Assembly: GCF_000213975.1 (NCBI RefSeq)
Contig: NZ_GL892076.1
Span: 400,944 to 440,277 of the forward strand
Length of the DNA stretch: 39,334 nucleotides
From: Centipeda periodontii DSM 2778
GTDB taxonomy: Bacteria > Bacillota > Negativicutes > Selenomonadales > Selenomonadaceae
Reading direction: 5' to 3'
The notes beneath the pieces were generated by a model. That model had not been told where the DNA came from. It was given only the letters and a program-made list of their open reading frames with translations, and did no database searches. Positions 9,758 through 36,972 of this stretch are shown one piece after another. Each line of letters begins with the position of its first letter. Position 1 is the stretch's first letter. The position numbers and the translations under genes were made by a program.

Positions 9758-10615
9758 ATGGGGATCTATCGAATCAAGCCGTGGGAAGAATTGACGATCC
9801 GTGATGACTATATGTTCAAGCTCATCATGAGCCGTAAACGTATCTGCAAACAGATGCTTGAGCGAATTCTTCACATCGAAATTGAGAGCCTGTCGTATGT
9901 CGAGACGGAAAAATCAATTATTCCAGCCTATCAGAACAAAGGCGTTCGTCTGGATGTCTATGTAAAAGACAACAAGGAAACGGTCTATAACATCGAGATG
10001 CAGATGCGCCGCCTTGAGGGAGACGGGCTGAGTAAAAGGACACGGTATTACCAAGCCATATTGGATACCGATCTGCTTGCCGCAGGAGCGAGTTACGGCA
10101 TGCTGAATCGGACCTTTATCATTTTCATCTGTCCGTTTGACCCATTTGGCGCAGGACGACACATCTATACATTTCGGAATTTGTGCATAGAGGATCGAAC
10201 CCTGGAACTGGACGATGGCGCAACGCGTATTTTTCTGAATACGAAAGGGACACGCGATGATGTGGATGACTCGGTTCGCGCGTTTCTGAACTATGTCAAT
10301 GGTGTGGTCAGCGAGGATAGCCTCGTGCAGGAAATTGATGAGGAAATCCATCGAATCAAAATAGAAGAAAGAGGGAAGGTGGGGTATATGTTTTTGGCAG
10401 ATAAGATTGCAGAGGAGCGTTTTTACGCTGCAAAGGAAGGGCGTGAAGAAGGACGTGAAGAAGGACGTGAAAAAGGGCGTGAAGAAGGGCGTATCGAGGC
10501 ACAGCTTGAAAACATTCATCGGTTGATCACGAAGCTGAAGATATCTGCGGAGCAGGCAATGGATCTGCTTGAGATCCCACCATCAGAACGACAGCACTAC
10601 AAGGGTGCGTTGTAA
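9758..10615 (+). CDS. Rpn-family PD-(D/E)XK nuclease / transposase-like protein
   Basis: 285 residues, ATG 4-5 bases after AGAGGTGA. Members of this family (E. coli RpnA-E, Pfam PDDEXK_2) are DNA nucleases that raise recombination and are linked to phage defence. The catalytic core is visible: RLDVYV (Asp66) and YNIEMQ (Glu80, Gln82), the D-ExQ form of PD-(D/E)XK. The C-terminus has a run of GREE-type tetrapeptides (residues about 227-246) and ends in an ISAEQAMDLLEIPPSE motif shared with the second copy at 34543-35481. The gene sits between a fragment and a full copy of a MITE-like repeat, as if it travelled with them. Substrate and partner unknown. Confidence 0.85.
   Translation: MGIYRIKPWEELTIRDDYMFKLIMSRKRICKQMLERILHIEIESLSYVETEKSIIPAYQNKGVRLDVYVKDNKETVYNIEMQMRRLEGDGLSKRTRYYQAILDTDLLAAGASYGMLNRTFIIFICPFDPFGAGRHIYTFRNLCIEDRTLELDDGATRIFLNTKGTRDDVDDSVRAFLNYVNGVVSEDSLVQEIDEEIHRIKIEERGKVGYMFLADKIAEERFYAAKEGREEGREEGREKGREEGRIEAQLENIHRLITKLKISAEQAMDLLEIPPSERQHYKGAL
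10436..10495 (+). repeat. Tandem 12-bp repeat (GREE units) in the rpn-like gene
   Basis: Five imperfect 12-base units of the type GAAGAAGGACGT, encoding E-G-R-E repeats. Unit gain or loss keeps the frame. Confidence 0.85.
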
Positions 10616-10804: not shown

Positions 10805-11770
10805 ATGGAGTTCGACTGTTGGACAGGTCTCAATATCGAGGGAAAGCCCTACCTCATTGCGGAGAAAATTCGCTATAAGGAAAAGACTTCGGACGATGTA
10901 TGGACGGAGTACGGGCTAATTACACAGGGCAGCAAGGACCGCATCTGGCTGACGATTGCGGACGGCGGGCTTTCATGCAGCCTTTCCGTCACGGTGGAGG
11001 AGACCAAACCACCGAAGGGCTACCGTCTGCACGATGCGGGCAAGCAGGTGGTCACGGGCAGCTGGGGCGATACGCGTGCCGCGATTGGCGATATCTCGCG
11101 ATACGAGCAGTACAAGAGCGCAGACGGGACGGAGACGTTCTTTGTCGAGAATAATTGGGGAAACAAAACTGCGTCGGCAGGACATAAAATCTCCGCCACA
11201 GGCATCCACCTCGATGTACTGGCTTCCTCCCCGCGCCGCAATGCCGTTTGCTACTACCTGAAGAGCAGCTTCTATGAGGCAGTCTCGAGCGTTGCCATTG
11301 TTTTCCTCATCGCGATGAGCTTCATCATGCTCACGGATGTCATTCCGAATCTCAGTGCGCGCGACTGGCACGATTTCCGCCGTTTTGTCGGGACTCCCTA
11401 TGCCATGCACGAACGCCTCAGCGATGCGCCCTACTACACGGAACAGCGCGAGGAGGGCGGCGCACGGGTTTACACGGCGCAGGTCGATGCAGGCATCGCC
11501 GCTCTGGATCTCATCGAGGGCATGGACGGCAGGGTGAAGGACGCGTACGAGGATCTCGGCGATGCGGAGCATCCGATTGTGATTCGCACGCAGACGGAGA
11601 CCGCACGCATTACGAGCGCGGCGGACGGCACGGCGTACATCGTTGTGACGGGAGCAAGCCCCGACCGCGCCCCCGCCGCCGACCAACTTCGACGAAGTCA
11701 TACGCTCATCCGCTACGCCGAACTCGTCCGCACGGGCGACACGCGCGGACGGGCGGGGGTGGTGCAGTAG
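10805..11770 (+). CDS. DUF4178-like membrane protein, paralogue A
   Basis: 321 residues, ATG after AAAAGGAGGTGGG. Residues 1-135 resemble DUF4178: a beta-rich domain with SDDVWTEYGLI, IWLTIADGG, KGYRLHDAG and a GD..RYEQY block. One membrane helix follows at about 158-181, then a region of about 135 residues that is almost the same in paralogue B (YAMHERLSDAPY, VDAGIAALDLIEG, TARITSAADGTA, LVRTGDTRGRAG). No catalytic motif seen. DUF4178 genes are commonly found beside DUF350, PspA-like and glutathionylspermidine-synthase-like genes, as here. Likely first gene of an operon running to 15231; a MITE-like element occupies the expected promoter region. Confidence 0.75.
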   Translation: MEFDCWTGLNIEGKPYLIAEKIRYKEKTSDDVWTEYGLITQGSKDRIWLTIADGGLSCSLSVTVEETKPPKGYRLHDAGKQVVTGSWGDTRAAIGDISRYEQYKSADGTETFFVENNWGNKTASAGHKISATGIHLDVLASSPRRNAVCYYLKSSFYEAVSSVAIVFLIAMSFIMLTDVIPNLSARDWHDFRRFVGTPYAMHERLSDAPYYTEQREEGGARVYTAQVDAGIAALDLIEGMDGRVKDAYEDLGDAEHPIVIRTQTETARITSAADGTAYIVVTGASPDRAPAADQLRRSHTLIRYAELVRTGDTRGRAGVVQ

Positions 11771-11830
11771 GAGAGTCCGCGCACCACCACTTGACCGCAC
11801 CATTAAAATTTTCCGATAGGAGGTGATGCC

Positions 11831-12805
11831 GTGGATTTTGACTGTTGGACCGGCATCAAAATCGGAACGAAACCATGTACCATTGTGGAAAAGATCCGAT
11901 ACAAGGAGAAAACATCGGATGATGTATGGACAGAGTATAAGCTTATCACGAATGACACCAATGCACACATCTGGCTGAGCATCACAGACGATGGACGCTC
12001 ATGCATCATCTCCTCCCCTGCGGGAAACAATGTGCCGAAGGGCTACCGTCTCCATGACAGCGGCACGGAGGTTGTAACAGGGGTCTGGGGCGATACGGAT
12101 GTGGCGGTCGGCGATGAGACGAGATATGAGCAATACGAGAGTGCGGACGGCAGGAACACCTTCTTTGTCGAGTATTGGAATGGCAGTCGCAGCAGTTCGC
12201 AGGGAGGAAAGATCTCCGCTTCTACAATCATCGCGGACACGGACACGGATACGAGTACGCGGCAGAAGGTACGGGCGATATATCGGCGATCGAGGCTGCG
12301 CAACTCCCTCATCGAGCCGGTTGCAGGTCTTGCCGGAGCCTGCGTCATCCTGCTCCTATCCGTCGCTCCCGACTTCGACATGCGGGACTACTGGCACGCG
12401 TTCCGCGATTTCGTGAATCTCCCCTATGTCATGCACGAACGCCTCAGTGATGCCCCCTACCACACGGAGCAGCAGGAGGAGGCCGGCACTCTGGTTTACA
12501 CGGCGCAGGTCGATGCAGGCATCGTCGCTCTCGATCTCATTGAGGGTGTGGACGGCAGGGTGGAGGATGCGTACGAAAGGCTCGGTGATGCGGAGCATCC
12601 GATCATCATTCGAACCCGGGAGGAGACCGCACGCATTACGAGCGCGGCGGACGGCACAGCGCACATTGTCGTGACGCAGGCAAGCCCCGACCGCGCACCT
12701 GCCGCCGACCGGCTTCAGCGCAGTCATACCCTCTTCCGCTACGCTGTGCTCGTTCGCACGGGCGACACGCGCGGACGGGCGGGGGTGACCATCGACGGAA
12801 AATAG
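11831..12805 (+). CDS. DUF4178-like membrane protein, paralogue B
   Basis: 324 residues from a GTG start 5 bases after AGGAGGT; there is no in-frame ATG nearby. Same build as paralogue A: N-terminal DUF4178-like domain (SDDVWTEYKLI, IWLSITDDG, KGYRLHDSG), one membrane helix at about 160-181 and a C-terminal domain that matches A much better than the N-terminal half does. The pair is a tandem duplication. The 60-base gap between them (11771-11830) has no terminator, so they are probably co-transcribed. Confidence 0.75.
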   Translation: MDFDCWTGIKIGTKPCTIVEKIRYKEKTSDDVWTEYKLITNDTNAHIWLSITDDGRSCIISSPAGNNVPKGYRLHDSGTEVVTGVWGDTDVAVGDETRYEQYESADGRNTFFVEYWNGSRSSSQGGKISASTIIADTDTDTSTRQKVRAIYRRSRLRNSLIEPVAGLAGACVILLLSVAPDFDMRDYWHAFRDFVNLPYVMHERLSDAPYHTEQQEEAGTLVYTAQVDAGIVALDLIEGVDGRVEDAYERLGDAEHPIIIRTREETARITSAADGTAHIVVTQASPDRAPAADRLQRSHTLFRYAVLVRTGDTRGRAGVTIDGK

Positions 12806-12815
12806 GAGAACACAC

Positions 12816-13247
12816 ATGATTGATCCATCCGTACTCATGCTCACGGCATTCTACGCCGCGTTCGGCATCCTGCTCATGATCGTGTCCAACATTGTCATCG
12901 ACTTCTTCATCCCCGGCGACTTCGCGGAGGAGATTCGGCGCGGCAATCGCGCGGTCGCGTGGCTCTCGGCGGGCTCGTTCATCGGGATTGGCGAGATCCT
13001 GCGCGCCGTCATCATATCCCCCGCCTATGATGCGCTGACAACGGACTTTGTGCAGGGCGTCATCGCAAGTGCCGTCTACGCCGCCGTCGGCATCATCTTC
13101 TTCATCATCGGCTTCTTCGTCATCAACGCATGGCACCGCAAATACGCACTCGCCGCCGAAATCCAGCGCGGCAACACAGCGGCGGGCATCTTTGTGTTCG
13201 GCATCTTCGTCGGGCTGTCACTGGTCATCAGCGGCGCGGTGCATTGA
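12816..13247 (+). CDS. DUF350-family membrane protein (YjfL type)
   Basis: 143 residues, ATG after AGGAGAACACAC, 10 bases after the stop of paralogue B. Four membrane helices in two repeats, each with the same loop: EIRRGNRAVAWLSAG and EIQRGNTAAGIFVFG. This internal duplication is typical of DUF350 (Pfam PF03994, E. coli YjfL). Function unknown; in many bacteria it is encoded with a DUF4178/DUF2491 protein and a glutathionylspermidine-synthase-like ligase, as here. Inner membrane. Confidence 0.88.
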   Translation: MIDPSVLMLTAFYAAFGILLMIVSNIVIDFFIPGDFAEEIRRGNRAVAWLSAGSFIGIGEILRAVIISPAYDALTTDFVQGVIASAVYAAVGIIFFIIGFFVINAWHRKYALAAEIQRGNTAAGIFVFGIFVGLSLVISGAVH

Positions 13248-13264
13248 TGAGCGTGCTCACGAAA

Positions 13265-13322
13265 AAGCCTCCCCCGTCACCACGGGGGAGGGGGACCGCG
13301 CAAGCGGTGGTGGGGGCGCTTT
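13265..13322 (+). repeat. REP-like single unit 2
   Basis: CCTCCCCCGT-CACC-ACGGGGGAGG hairpin, then ACCGC-GCAA-GCGGT hairpin, then GGTGGGGGCGCTTTGAGCGATT. It lies inside the operon between the DUF350 gene and the tail-protein gene. Confidence 0.88.
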
Positions 13323-13360
13323 GAGCGATTACAGGAGAAGCTGCATAGAGGAGGTTCTGC

Positions 13361-13924
13361 ATGGAAAACATGGGGCGCAAGGCCGCCATTCTCGCTGCTG
13401 CCTTTGCCTCGGTCGGCGCACTCGGCGCAGCGTATGTCTATCGTCATGATATTGCATTTTCTATTGCCGACGTTGTTCATCCCGAGTGGAACGCGGGCGA
13501 GGCGCGGCTCGCGGATGCCTATGACCGCCGCTACACGCTTCTCAACAACGGGGACGGGACGGAGACGGCGCTCTATGACGATGCGACCGCCGTCACCTTT
13601 CGCCACGACGGCGCGGGCGACCTTGTCTGGCTGTTCGGTACGGCGAGCCTCCTCGCCCCGATCGCGCCGAACTACTTCGCGTTCCACGGCTTTTCCTACG
13701 CGGGCGGCACAATGGATCTTGCACGCATGACCTACCGCGCGAATGCCCCACTCACTCCGCTGCCCGAAAAGCACGTCGCCTCCGGCACGGGCACGCATTC
13801 ACACGGAGCAGGTCACGCCTTTGCGGGACGCAGCTACAACGACAGAAAGAGCTCCCAGTCCTCCGAGATCAGCCGGAGGTCCGGCTTCGGTCAGGCGGGC
13901 ATCCGTTCATCGGGAGGCTCGTGA
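13361..13924 (+). CDS. Membrane-anchored protein with Ser/Gly-rich C-terminal tail
   Basis: 187 residues, ATG 5-6 bases after AGAGGAGG. One N-terminal helix (about 6-26) would anchor or export it. The middle part (about 45-130) is a small folded domain (TLLNNGDGTETALYDD, YFAFHGFSYAGGTMDL) that I do not recognise. The last 45 residues are low-complexity: SGTGTHSHGAGHAFAGRS, then a stretch rich in Ser and Arg, ending RRSGFGQAGIRSSGGS. This tail is reminiscent of the Gly/Ser-rich ends of YjfM/YgiB (DUF1190) lipoproteins, which are encoded beside DUF350 and the ATP-grasp ligase in E. coli-type loci. The stop codon is 2 bases before the ligase start, so the two are tightly coupled. It is a candidate substrate of the ligase. 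Confidence 0.72.
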   Translation: MENMGRKAAILAAAFASVGALGAAYVYRHDIAFSIADVVHPEWNAGEARLADAYDRRYTLLNNGDGTETALYDDATAVTFRHDGAGDLVWLFGTASLLAPIAPNYFAFHGFSYAGGTMDLARMTYRANAPLTPLPEKHVASGTGTHSHGAGHAFAGRSYNDRKSSQSSEISRRSGFGQAGIRSSGGS

Positions 13925-13926
13925 CT

Positions 13927-15231
13927 ATGGAACGCGTACACACAGATACCTACATCGATGCACTCGATCCCGCCATCTTCACCTACATTCAGTACGGCGA
14001 CTATGCCGACCGCTACCCAACACATACCGTGCAGGCATTTCCGCAGGAGTTCTACGATGAACTGCGCGCAGCATCGGCAGGGCTGTTTCGCATCTTCTGC
14101 AAGGCAGCAACGGTCCTCCAAAATGCGTCCGACAACTTTGCGCGCGCGATGGATCTGCCGCGCGAGCTGCTCCCCTACCTGCGCATTCCGAATGCATTTG
14201 GGCTTCCGACGTGGCTCTCGCGCTTTGACTTCGTACTCGATGAAACAGGGCATATCCGCATGGTCGAGATCAATGCGGATACGCCCTGTTTTATCGTGGA
14301 GTCCTTCTATGCAAACGGCATCGCGGCCGCGTATCACGGCTACCGTGACCCGAATGCAGGTGCAGGGGAACAGCTGCGGGACTTTCTCGCACAGATTCAC
14401 AATCGCCTCGCCGCTCCCGTCGCCGATCTGAACCGGCGAACGCTCCGCCATCGTCCCTTTGTCTTTGCATGCTTTGACGACTATCCCGAGGATCTCGCGA
14501 ATACGCGCTTCCTCATGAATCGAATGCGAGAAGGCGTACCGCACGGCGACCTCCGCTTCCTCTCGTTCTATGAGATGGAGATTGATGCAAACGGCATTCT
14601 TCTCGCCGACGAGGAATATGCGACTGCACTCTATCGTCTACACCCGATGGAGATATTGATTGACGAGCGCACCCCGAAGGGGGAACCGCTCGGGGCGATG
14701 TTTCTGGATTTATACAAGGAGGGGAAATTTACGCTCATGAATCCACCCGAGGCGATCCTCCTGCAGAACAAATCCTTTATGGCGCTCGTCTATGCGCTTG
14801 CGCGGACAGAGCAGTTCCTGACCTCCGAGGAGTGCGCTCTCGTGGAGCGTTACCTCGTGCCGTCCTATTTCGAGGACGATTTCGCGGCGCTCACGGACGG
14901 TACATATATCCACAAGGAGATCTGGGGGCGCGAGGGAAGAAACGTGCGTCTGGTCGAAAAGCGCGACGGGCGTGCATCCACGGTGCACGAGAAGCAGCCC
15001 GACAACGTCGATGAGATTATCTGTCGCGAAAGCCGCGCGGCAATGTATCAGGACTTCATTCGTCCACCGCGCTTTGTCCACACGGTCGACTCCGGAACGA
15101 TCGACGGCTGCCTGACGCTCTCGTGCTTTATGCTTTTCGATCAGCCCTCCGCCGTCGGCGCACGCTTCTCCCCCACCGCGATTGCAGGCACGGAGGCATA
15201 CTTTCTGCCGCTCGTTGTTGAGGAGTCATAG
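13927..15231 (+). CDS. Glutathionylspermidine-synthase-like ATP-grasp ligase (YjfC type)
   Basis: 434 residues. ATG chosen 10 bases after GGGAGG; a GTG two codons earlier is too close to it. This is the stand-alone synthetase domain without the N-terminal CHAP amidase of E. coli Gsp. Motifs: MVEINADTPCFIVESF (compare EYNADTP in Gsp), FDDYPEDLANTRFL, PPEAILLQNKSFMALVYAL, and HKEIWGREGRNVRLVEK, which supplies ATP-binding Lys and the GREG loop. These enzymes join a carboxylate to an amine through an acyl phosphate. Real Gsp links glutathione and spermidine; the YjfC group probably has another target. Context with DUF4178, DUF350 and a tailed membrane protein supports peptide or membrane-protein modification. 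Confidence 0.88.
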   Translation: MERVHTDTYIDALDPAIFTYIQYGDYADRYPTHTVQAFPQEFYDELRAASAGLFRIFCKAATVLQNASDNFARAMDLPRELLPYLRIPNAFGLPTWLSRFDFVLDETGHIRMVEINADTPCFIVESFYANGIAAAYHGYRDPNAGAGEQLRDFLAQIHNRLAAPVADLNRRTLRHRPFVFACFDDYPEDLANTRFLMNRMREGVPHGDLRFLSFYEMEIDANGILLADEEYATALYRLHPMEILIDERTPKGEPLGAMFLDLYKEGKFTLMNPPEAILLQNKSFMALVYALARTEQFLTSEECALVERYLVPSYFEDDFAALTDGTYIHKEIWGREGRNVRLVEKRDGRASTVHEKQPDNVDEIICRESRAAMYQDFIRPPRFVHTVDSGTIDGCLTLSCFMLFDQPSAVGARFSPTAIAGTEAYFLPLVVEES

Positions 15232-15343: not shown

Positions 15344-15427
15344 GTGACACTTTATGAAAAGCTGTCGCTTCTGGTTGCAGTGTTGACACTCCTAACCAGC
15401 ATCATTTTCAATCTGCTTCAATTATAG
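15344..15427 (+). CDS. 27-residue hydrophobic peptide, holin-like type I toxin candidate
   Basis: A GTG start 5-6 bases after a near-perfect ribosome site (GGAGGTGAT at 15331-15339) opens 27 codons and a TAG. The peptide begins VTLYEKLSLLVAVLTLLTSI (first residue read as Met) and continues with seven more mostly hydrophobic residues: a single membrane helix with a short polar N-terminus containing YEKLSLL. This agrees with the pattern of the putative holin-like toxin family (tYEaLsLm-hydrophobic) of Firmicutes and, more loosely, TxpA/BsrG. The gene is far too short for ordinary ORF finders. The presence of a hidden ribosome site and of an opposing RNA with a consensus promoter supports a type I toxin that depolarises or perturbs the inner membrane. 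Toxicity itself is inferred. Confidence 0.65.
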   Translation: MTLYEKLSLLVAVLTLLTSIIFNLLQL

Positions 15428-36913: not shown

Positions 36914-36972
36914 AAGCCTCCCCCGTCGATACGGGGGAGGGGGACCGCGCAAGCGGTGGTAGGGGCGCTTTG
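36914..36972 (+). repeat. REP-like single unit 8
   Basis: CCTCCCCCGT-CGAT-ACGGGGGAGG hairpin, ACCGC-GCAA-GCGGT hairpin, then GGTAGGGGCGCTTTGGGCGA. Lies in the leader of treC. Confidence 0.9.

Follow-up and report, generated by a model that had tools for sequence, protein, structure and literature searches.

The ATP-grasp enzyme glutathionylspermidine synthetase (Gss) uses the glycine carboxylate of glutathione as acceptor. Its relatives YgiC and YjfC of Escherichia coli are annotated as 'peptide--spermidine ligase', and Pederick et al. reportedly described peptide-spermidine ligase activity of a YgiC/YjfC-type enzyme in 2023, to judge by their title. Ravi et al. 2024 (PMC11237479) described some operons that contain such ligases as the third PspA/CesT group and variants of it; no substrate and no C-terminal tag is named in the accessible part of that paper, whose main text never uses the words glycine or lysine. 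Here we analyse a five-gene operon with a ligase of this type in a stretch of 39,334 nucleotides from Centipeda periodontii DSM 2778 (contig NZ_GL892076.1, positions 400,944 to 440,277; the window). The gene directly upstream of the ligase encodes a protein with a conserved C-terminal tag, the tail protein, and we consider it fairly probable that the two are enzyme and protein substrate: the tag would be amidated with a polyamine, which would then lie outside the membrane.

A first-pass annotation of this DNA had stated that amidation by such systems was proposed but not shown, and this needs correction in view of the activity reported, by title, for the enzyme type. The enzyme type is thus known and the operon type partly known; what seems to be new, as far as the open-licence literature shows, is a tag that recurs on largely unrelated carriers and points to the C-terminal carboxylate as acceptor, together with a counterpart that ends in lysine beside the spermidine-synthase fusions.

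The ligase and its tailed partner

The ligase reaches 127.9 bits with PF03738 (curated cut-off 29.3), the only family for which it scores above cut-off, and a search of the PDB by sequence, at E-values up to 1, finds no relatives other than YjfC and YgiC of E. coli. The top fold match of an AlphaFold2 model (33 alignment rows; predicted local distance difference test, pLDDT, 91.0) is YjfC (7uk6; Z 40.3, root-mean-square deviation 2.2, 365 aligned), followed by Gss/GspS (2ioa, Z 35.5) and YgiC (7uk8, Z 35.1), which are tied. The Gss residues R316, D318, E330, N332, D334, K498, K533, Q568 and R598, which serve to bind ATP, Mg and substrate, are invariant in a seven-sequence alignment that includes the ligase. 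One loop differs: it reads NADSAS in Gss and NADTP in the window ligase, YgiC and YjfC. The ligase scores 29.7 bits with PRK10507, the NCBIfam equivalog model for Gss (cut-off 882), and lacks the CHAP amidase domain, of which the window holds no relative better than E 0.24. An ordinary glutathionylspermidine synthetase, the case that the first-pass annotation had set against its own proposal, is thus ruled out by domain content, NCBIfam score and loop, and the fold agrees; judged by its sequence and predicted fold, the enzyme is a relative of the E. coli YgiC/YjfC peptide-spermidine ligases. The annotation was also right that a CHAP amidase and PspA are missing: phmmer searches of the 251 open reading frames (ORFs) of the window with PspA, CHAP, DUF1190 and DUF2491 seeds gave a best E-value of 0.075, to a distant ORF. 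The window has no spermidine synthase match.

All 14 sampled genomes of the genus (our own and 13 congeners) have the ligase, and so do 23 of the 60 genomes of a wider sample, our own included. Families that could supply the polyamine, AdoMet decarboxylase and spermidine synthase, have matches in 14/14 genus genomes.

The tail protein is predicted to consist of a helix, a folded domain at about residues 48-137 and a disordered C-terminal end: its AlphaFold2 model, built from a 3-row alignment, has a mean pLDDT of 59.4, with values of 82-87 in blocks of residues 51-130 and below 50 at residues 138-187. A fold search with the body (VIA-align) returned nothing above Z 4.6 and is uninformative, and the body has no DUF1190 match, in line with the earlier remark that it is unlike the DUF1190 proteins. 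The tag, SRRSGFGQAGIRSSGGS, contains no Asp or Glu, and the protein ends in GGS. Across 17 homologues SGFGxAGxR is invariant (S174, G175, F176, G177, A179, G180 and R182), and the linker that precedes it has a mean pairwise identity of 39%. A pattern for the tag, run against the DNA of the whole genome, found the tail gene and one DNA-level match at C1:1411899.

Among the 60 genomes, 17 encode the tail protein and each of these also has the ligase. The remaining six of the 23 genomes with ligase come from more distantly related bacteria of the class, and in all six a small upstream protein has a similar tail (KGGLGSS, KSGIGSS, KGGIGSS, RGGLGSA, KGGIGSH and KGGIGSQ). In G028 a second tail protein (L221), which is unlinked, also retains the whole tag.

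The tag beside ligases of other bacteria, phages and plasmids

For a neighbourhood survey, the pattern [KR][MLC][VLI]ExN[AS]DTP served to select named ligase loci, and the best 80 of at least 374 were kept, so that these loci are pre-selected for the DTP loop. According to their record titles they come from Bacillota, Actinomycetota, Bacteroidota and several classes of Pseudomonadota. A loose tag motif set before the loci were read, [GS]G[FYILWVM]G, is found upstream of the ligase in 65/80 loci and downstream in 2/80; the motif narrowed after reading them, [GS]G[FYIL]G, is found upstream in 65/80, downstream in 3/80, on the opposite strand in 2/80 and in 19 of 1637 background ORFs. A strict form with a nearby Arg or Lys is present in 58 of the 65 tails (mean of 1000 shuffles 2.7, maximum 10), and 63 of the 65 tail genes stop no more than about 350 nt from where the ligase begins. 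Hence the tail is conserved beside the ligase, both within its own family and in the survey; the first-pass annotation had named the opposite outcome as fatal to its proposal.

The bodies that carry these tails fall into 10 clusters (blastp at 1e-3, single linkage), and a profile of the window-type body, searched against the 65 tail proteins and YgiB, finds only its own relatives L080 and L081 below E 0.5. As the tag recurs on largely unrelated proteins beside such ligases, it is probably the place where the enzyme attaches the polyamine. Export of the tail proteins is plausible: by a simple rule, 39 of the 65 have a lipobox-like site, 51 a hydrophobic stretch and 6 neither. DUF350 is encoded within 5 kb of the ligase in 52/80 loci. 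Upstream of the ligase, 14/80 loci also have an unnamed family of about 150 residues (MARLEYRLLDEA...; L023 633-1085 and relatives), with no Pfam match for the one member scanned.

A second sample had no loop pre-selection: PF03738 matched in 42 of 398 genomes of the phylum, the best 30 loci were taken and 28 of them classed (L057 and L075 lack a signature). Its rows are not all independent, because it includes the window and three members of its family, and its tails were read before the final motif. Among single-domain ligases, the tail accompanies the DTP loop in 15/15 loci, the ETP loop in 1/3, DVP in 0/1 and DGS in 0/7. The 822-residue frames of L058 and L063 were left out of tail scoring, as their upstream genes lie largely outside the loci. 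PF03738 also matches in long open frames (823-880 codons) of three loci, twice in L057, twice in L063 and once in L058, and these are possibly tandem ligase domains. In L068-L074 a glutamate-cysteine-ligase-like gene (PF04107, checked in L068) is followed by a tail-less PF03738 protein with an N[AT]DGSS loop; this pair may represent an additional path to glutathione or to a thiol peptide like it.

Six of 136 matching records of a phage collection were fetched after the motif was set, and five of the six have a tagged lipoprotein-like gene with the ligase. This gene is the immediate upstream neighbour of the ligase in Phosso, Motura and MD-2021a; in vB_OspM_OC it stands one gene away and in phiAS4 three small ORFs away. 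Because its flanks look bacterial, MD-2021a could be a contig of bacterial origin and not a phage. In Achromobacter phage Motura (L232, 303-3896), homospermidine synthase, tagged lipoprotein, ligase and DUF350 stand in one row. The idea of phages wholly without DUF350 was dropped because of this downstream DUF350 of Motura; the 2 kb flanks of the other five loci contain none. Two plasmid-borne ligases were examined, and the one of Leptolyngbya has the near form SGMG.

Acceptor group, proposed reaction and alternatives

The 65 tails end in G (41), S (22), E (1) or T (1), at a background of about 10% each for Gly and Ser, and none ends in Lys. Their last 15 residues are free of Asp and Glu in 63/65 and free of Lys in 31/65, and thus the tails share no carboxylate other than the one at the C-terminus. 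With 63/65 tails ending in Gly or Ser and 63/65 lacking acidic residues, the C-terminal carboxylate is most likely the acceptor, as far as tail sequences can tell. The first-pass annotation had offered either this carboxylate or the Ser/Gly run; the former is favoured and a Ser or Gly side chain is the less likely acceptor. Graspetides, peptides modified by ATP-grasp enzymes, are defined by side-chain carboxylates in the modified peptide, and a graspetide-like chemistry was dropped for the same lack of acidic residues, which holds for SRRSGFGQAGIRSSGGS too.

The following course of events is inferred throughout, from the tag as substrate to bond, amine, timing, topology and purpose. In the cytoplasm, the ligase would bind the disordered tag at the C-terminus of a tail protein that has just been made, phosphorylate the terminal carboxylate using ATP and link it, as an amide, to a primary amine of a polyamine, spermidine being the likeliest. 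New tail protein would be capped before or during export. Because the tail protein appears to be membrane-anchored and exported, the polyamine would end outside the cytoplasmic membrane, as a cationic cap that could bind anionic lipids or wall polymers. The DUF350 and DUF4178 membrane proteins may be accessory membrane partners; most of the phage loci examined have no DUF350 near the ligase-tail pair.

Several observations weigh against amidation of the tag. The ligase needs cytoplasmic ATP, yet most tail proteins look exported, and therefore they would have to be modified before or during export. Tag and terminus are between 1 and 36 residues apart and the identity of the last residue varies as well, which would be unexpected of an enzyme that acts strictly at the terminus. 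The motif is missing from 15 of the 80 loci: 11 of these have degenerate or Gly/Ser-rich ends, and in L141, L146, L151 and L154 no tail was seen. Neither was one seen in phage DSS3_VP1, and the one ORF flagged by the rule near the Calothrix plasmid ligase has its motif far from the C-terminus and was counted as no tail.

The alternative that survives best, unlikely as we think it is, has the ligase make a soluble peptide-polyamine or glutathionyl-polyamine that the tail protein just senses or exports. Glutathionylspermidine synthetase belongs to the same family and the fold matches, but the NADTP loop has taken the place of the Gss loop, and glutamate-cysteine ligase PF04262 is found in 0/14 genus genomes, in a search of which PF04107 and GshB were not part. 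The accessible part of Li et al. 2023 (PMC9992855) likewise reads the Motura pair of homospermidine synthase and gss as a potential for glutathionylhomospermidine; however, the gene between hss and gss ends in RGGFGSTGSSFSAGG, and this tag suggests a protein substrate instead, just as the tag accompanies the ligase on unrelated bodies and in other phages. Somewhat less likely again is a docking or regulatory role, with the tag bound by the ligase but left unmodified and the true substrate elsewhere. A conserved core that lies 1-36 residues before the terminus resembles a docking motif, and the enzyme is cytoplasmic while the tail protein is mostly exported; against this, last residues are Gly or Ser far above background, acidic residues are nearly absent from the last 15, and the unlinked second tail protein of G028 has kept the whole tag. 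A role in the cell wall, in which the ligase would link a diamine, for example cadaverine, to a precursor of the wall and the tail protein would be its partner there, is very improbable: the enzyme chemistry would be compatible and cadaverine-linked peptidoglycan is known from Selenomonas, but ligase and tail protein are paired in the same way in E. coli, Bacillus-type bacteria, actinobacteria and phages, and of the 45 genera sampled in the class only 10 have a ligase match.

Amidation of the tag, the reading that we prefer, would matter beyond this operon. YgiC/YjfC-type ligases occur in several phyla, the accessible literature does not name their cellular substrate, and the tag offers one. 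It predicts a polyamine amide at the C-terminus, also for YgiB and YjfM of E. coli K-12. If true, this would be a protein modification that places polyamines on the cell envelope and that phages use too.

Operon layout and comparison with described systems

The operon consists of five genes on one strand with short gaps (60, 10, 113 and 2 nt, in order), just as the first-pass annotation had described it, including the tail gene 2 nt before the ligase (Table 1). The ligase starts with an ATG at 13927, and GGGAGG at 13912-13917, within the last codons of the tail gene, would be its ribosome-binding site. The first gene product has one hydrophobic segment (residues 154-172) and is 63% identical to the second. 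Neither it nor the tail protein has a Pfam match above cut-off; the first copy of congener G006 is above the DUF4178 cut-off. The order DUF4178-DUF350-tail-ligase is found in 14/14 genus genomes and also in G029, which belongs to a different genus; two DUF4178 copies are present in 3/14, namely our own, G002 and G006.

Table 1. Features of the ligase operon (positions in the window)
Feature	Position	Strand	Evidence and remarks
DUF4178-like protein, copy 1	10805..11770	+	ORF, 321 aa; C-terminal part ~140 aa
DUF4178 protein, copy 2	11831..12805	+	PF13785 1.1e-9, 38.9 bits vs cut-off 25; 324 aa
DUF350 membrane protein	12816..13247	+	PF03994 3.4e-25, 89.1 bits; 143 aa, four hydrophobic segments
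Tail protein	13361..13924	+	187 aa; N-terminal membrane helix, folded domain, disordered linker, C-terminal tag (predicted)
Codons of C-terminal tag	13871..13921	+	residues 171-187; proposed ligase recognition and acceptor site
ATP-grasp ligase, YgiC/YjfC type	13927..15231	+	PF03738 (GSP_synth) 7.1e-37; 434 aa, NADTP loop, without amidase domain

A 42-nt G+C-rich repeat lies in the gap between the DUF350 and tail genes (13269-13310), with a second copy at 36918-36959 (3 mismatches); the pair is absent from 100 shuffles, and the DUF350-tail gap measures 113 nt here and 11 nt in some congeners. Just 3' of the ligase, 15344-15427 (+) encodes a hydrophobic peptide of 27 residues, VTLYEKLSLLVAVLTLLTSIIFNLLQL, with no Pfam match, and the opposite strand has a sigma-70-type site (15561-15533, -; 12/12); the two look like a type I toxin-antisense RNA pair. 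Directly 5' of the operon (9758-10615) is a transposase-like gene of the PD-(D/E)XK nuclease family with a REEGREEGREKGREEG stretch, and a homologue is near the operon in G007 too. A known defence system was considered and dropped, as PADLOC gave no match better than E 0.026.

DUF4178 leads to a parallel system. Elsewhere in the phylum, one cluster combines DUF4178, PspA, a lipoprotein, DUF350 and a protein with a spermidine-synthase domain behind a hydrophobic half; domain and hydrophobic segments were verified by Pfam and segment scan in L184. In the literature this protein is called a major facilitator superfamily (MFS) or seven-transmembrane (7TM) fusion, and Li et al. are said to have suggested in 2019 that it aminopropylates something other than putrescine. 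Eight fusion loci read at length (L183-L190) have DUF4178 and PspA, and a lipoprotein that ends in a Gly-rich stretch and a Lys; it is DUF4247 in both members scanned. An upstream lipoprotein with a GG...K end accompanies 12/12 full-length fusions of the 398 genomes (one of them, in G448, has an in-frame stop) and 0/18 stand-alone synthases, and the rule for this end hits 1/1637 background ORFs. Clusters of this kind are L183-L190 and L191-L202. The rule was set on 8 genomes, and the 4 of the 12 fusions that were new to it all passed.

Other data weigh against a general Lys rule. Of plasmid-borne fusions from other groups (65 matching records, 12 covering at least 80% of the query, 6 taken), strictly only one (Ensifer) passes; Tritonibacter and Novosphingobium pass loosely, with a small membrane protein ending in Lys nearby, and no Lys-ended tail is near the fusions of Gemmatirosa, Burkholderia and Alteromonas. 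In G124 and G162, which have DUF4178 loci without a full-length fusion, the lipoprotein ends in a basic stretch and not in GG...K.

The terminal Lys of the lipoprotein tail is a candidate substrate of the fusion; if this is true, it would answer what the orphan aminopropyltransferase fusion modifies. A wider proposal, which we regard as possible rather than probable, is that two interchangeable enzymes put a polyamine on a C-terminal tag of exported proteins in bacteria and some phages: the ATP-grasp ligase would join spermidine or homospermidine to a tag ending in Gly or Ser, and the membrane-bound fusion would aminopropylate the terminal Lys of a similar Gly-rich tag. The window operon mixes the DUF4178 of the fusion cluster with the ligase and the Gly/Ser-ended tag of the other system. 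Such a mixture looks rare, because DUF4178 occurs near the ligase in only 1 of the 80 loci, that of Selenomonas, and because six other genomes of the phylum that have DUF4178 as well as a tailed-type PF03738 ligase or its ETP relative (G081, G124, G146, G162, G265 and G273) encode the two apart from each other. The genomes behind ligase loci L100-L159 have DUF4178 in 0/42 cases (L126 left out).

Compared with Gss, the window ligase has the same ATP-grasp fold and Mg/ATP residues; unlike Gss, it has no CHAP amidase, has NADTP in place of NADSAS and has a tailed protein as partner. It is about 20-23% identical to E. coli YgiC and YjfC, with which it shares ligase fold, catalytic residues and an immediately upstream tailed protein: the tails of YgiB and YjfM carry RGGFG and RGGYG, respectively, and both end in GG (YjfM in RGGYGRSSSARGHWGG). 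The parallel to the yjfIJKLMC cluster drawn in the first-pass annotation thus applies in part: DUF350, tailed protein and ligase are there, whereas PspA (YjfJ), DUF2491 (YjfK) and DUF1190 (YjfM) have no match in the window; the carrier body is different, and DUF4178 replaces PspA, DUF2170 and DUF2491. Going by the accessible part of Ravi et al. 2024 (PMC11237479), the third PspA/CesT group shares with the window a Gsp-synthetase-like ATP-grasp enzyme, DUF350 and a lipoprotein, and differs by its PspA and DUF2491. The cluster of AdoMet decarboxylase, spermidine-synthase fusion, DUF350 and DUF4178 in the same source shares DUF4178, DUF350 and a lipoprotein with Gly-rich tail; it has an aminopropyltransferase instead of the ligase, and its tail ends in Lys (12/12) and not in Gly or Ser.

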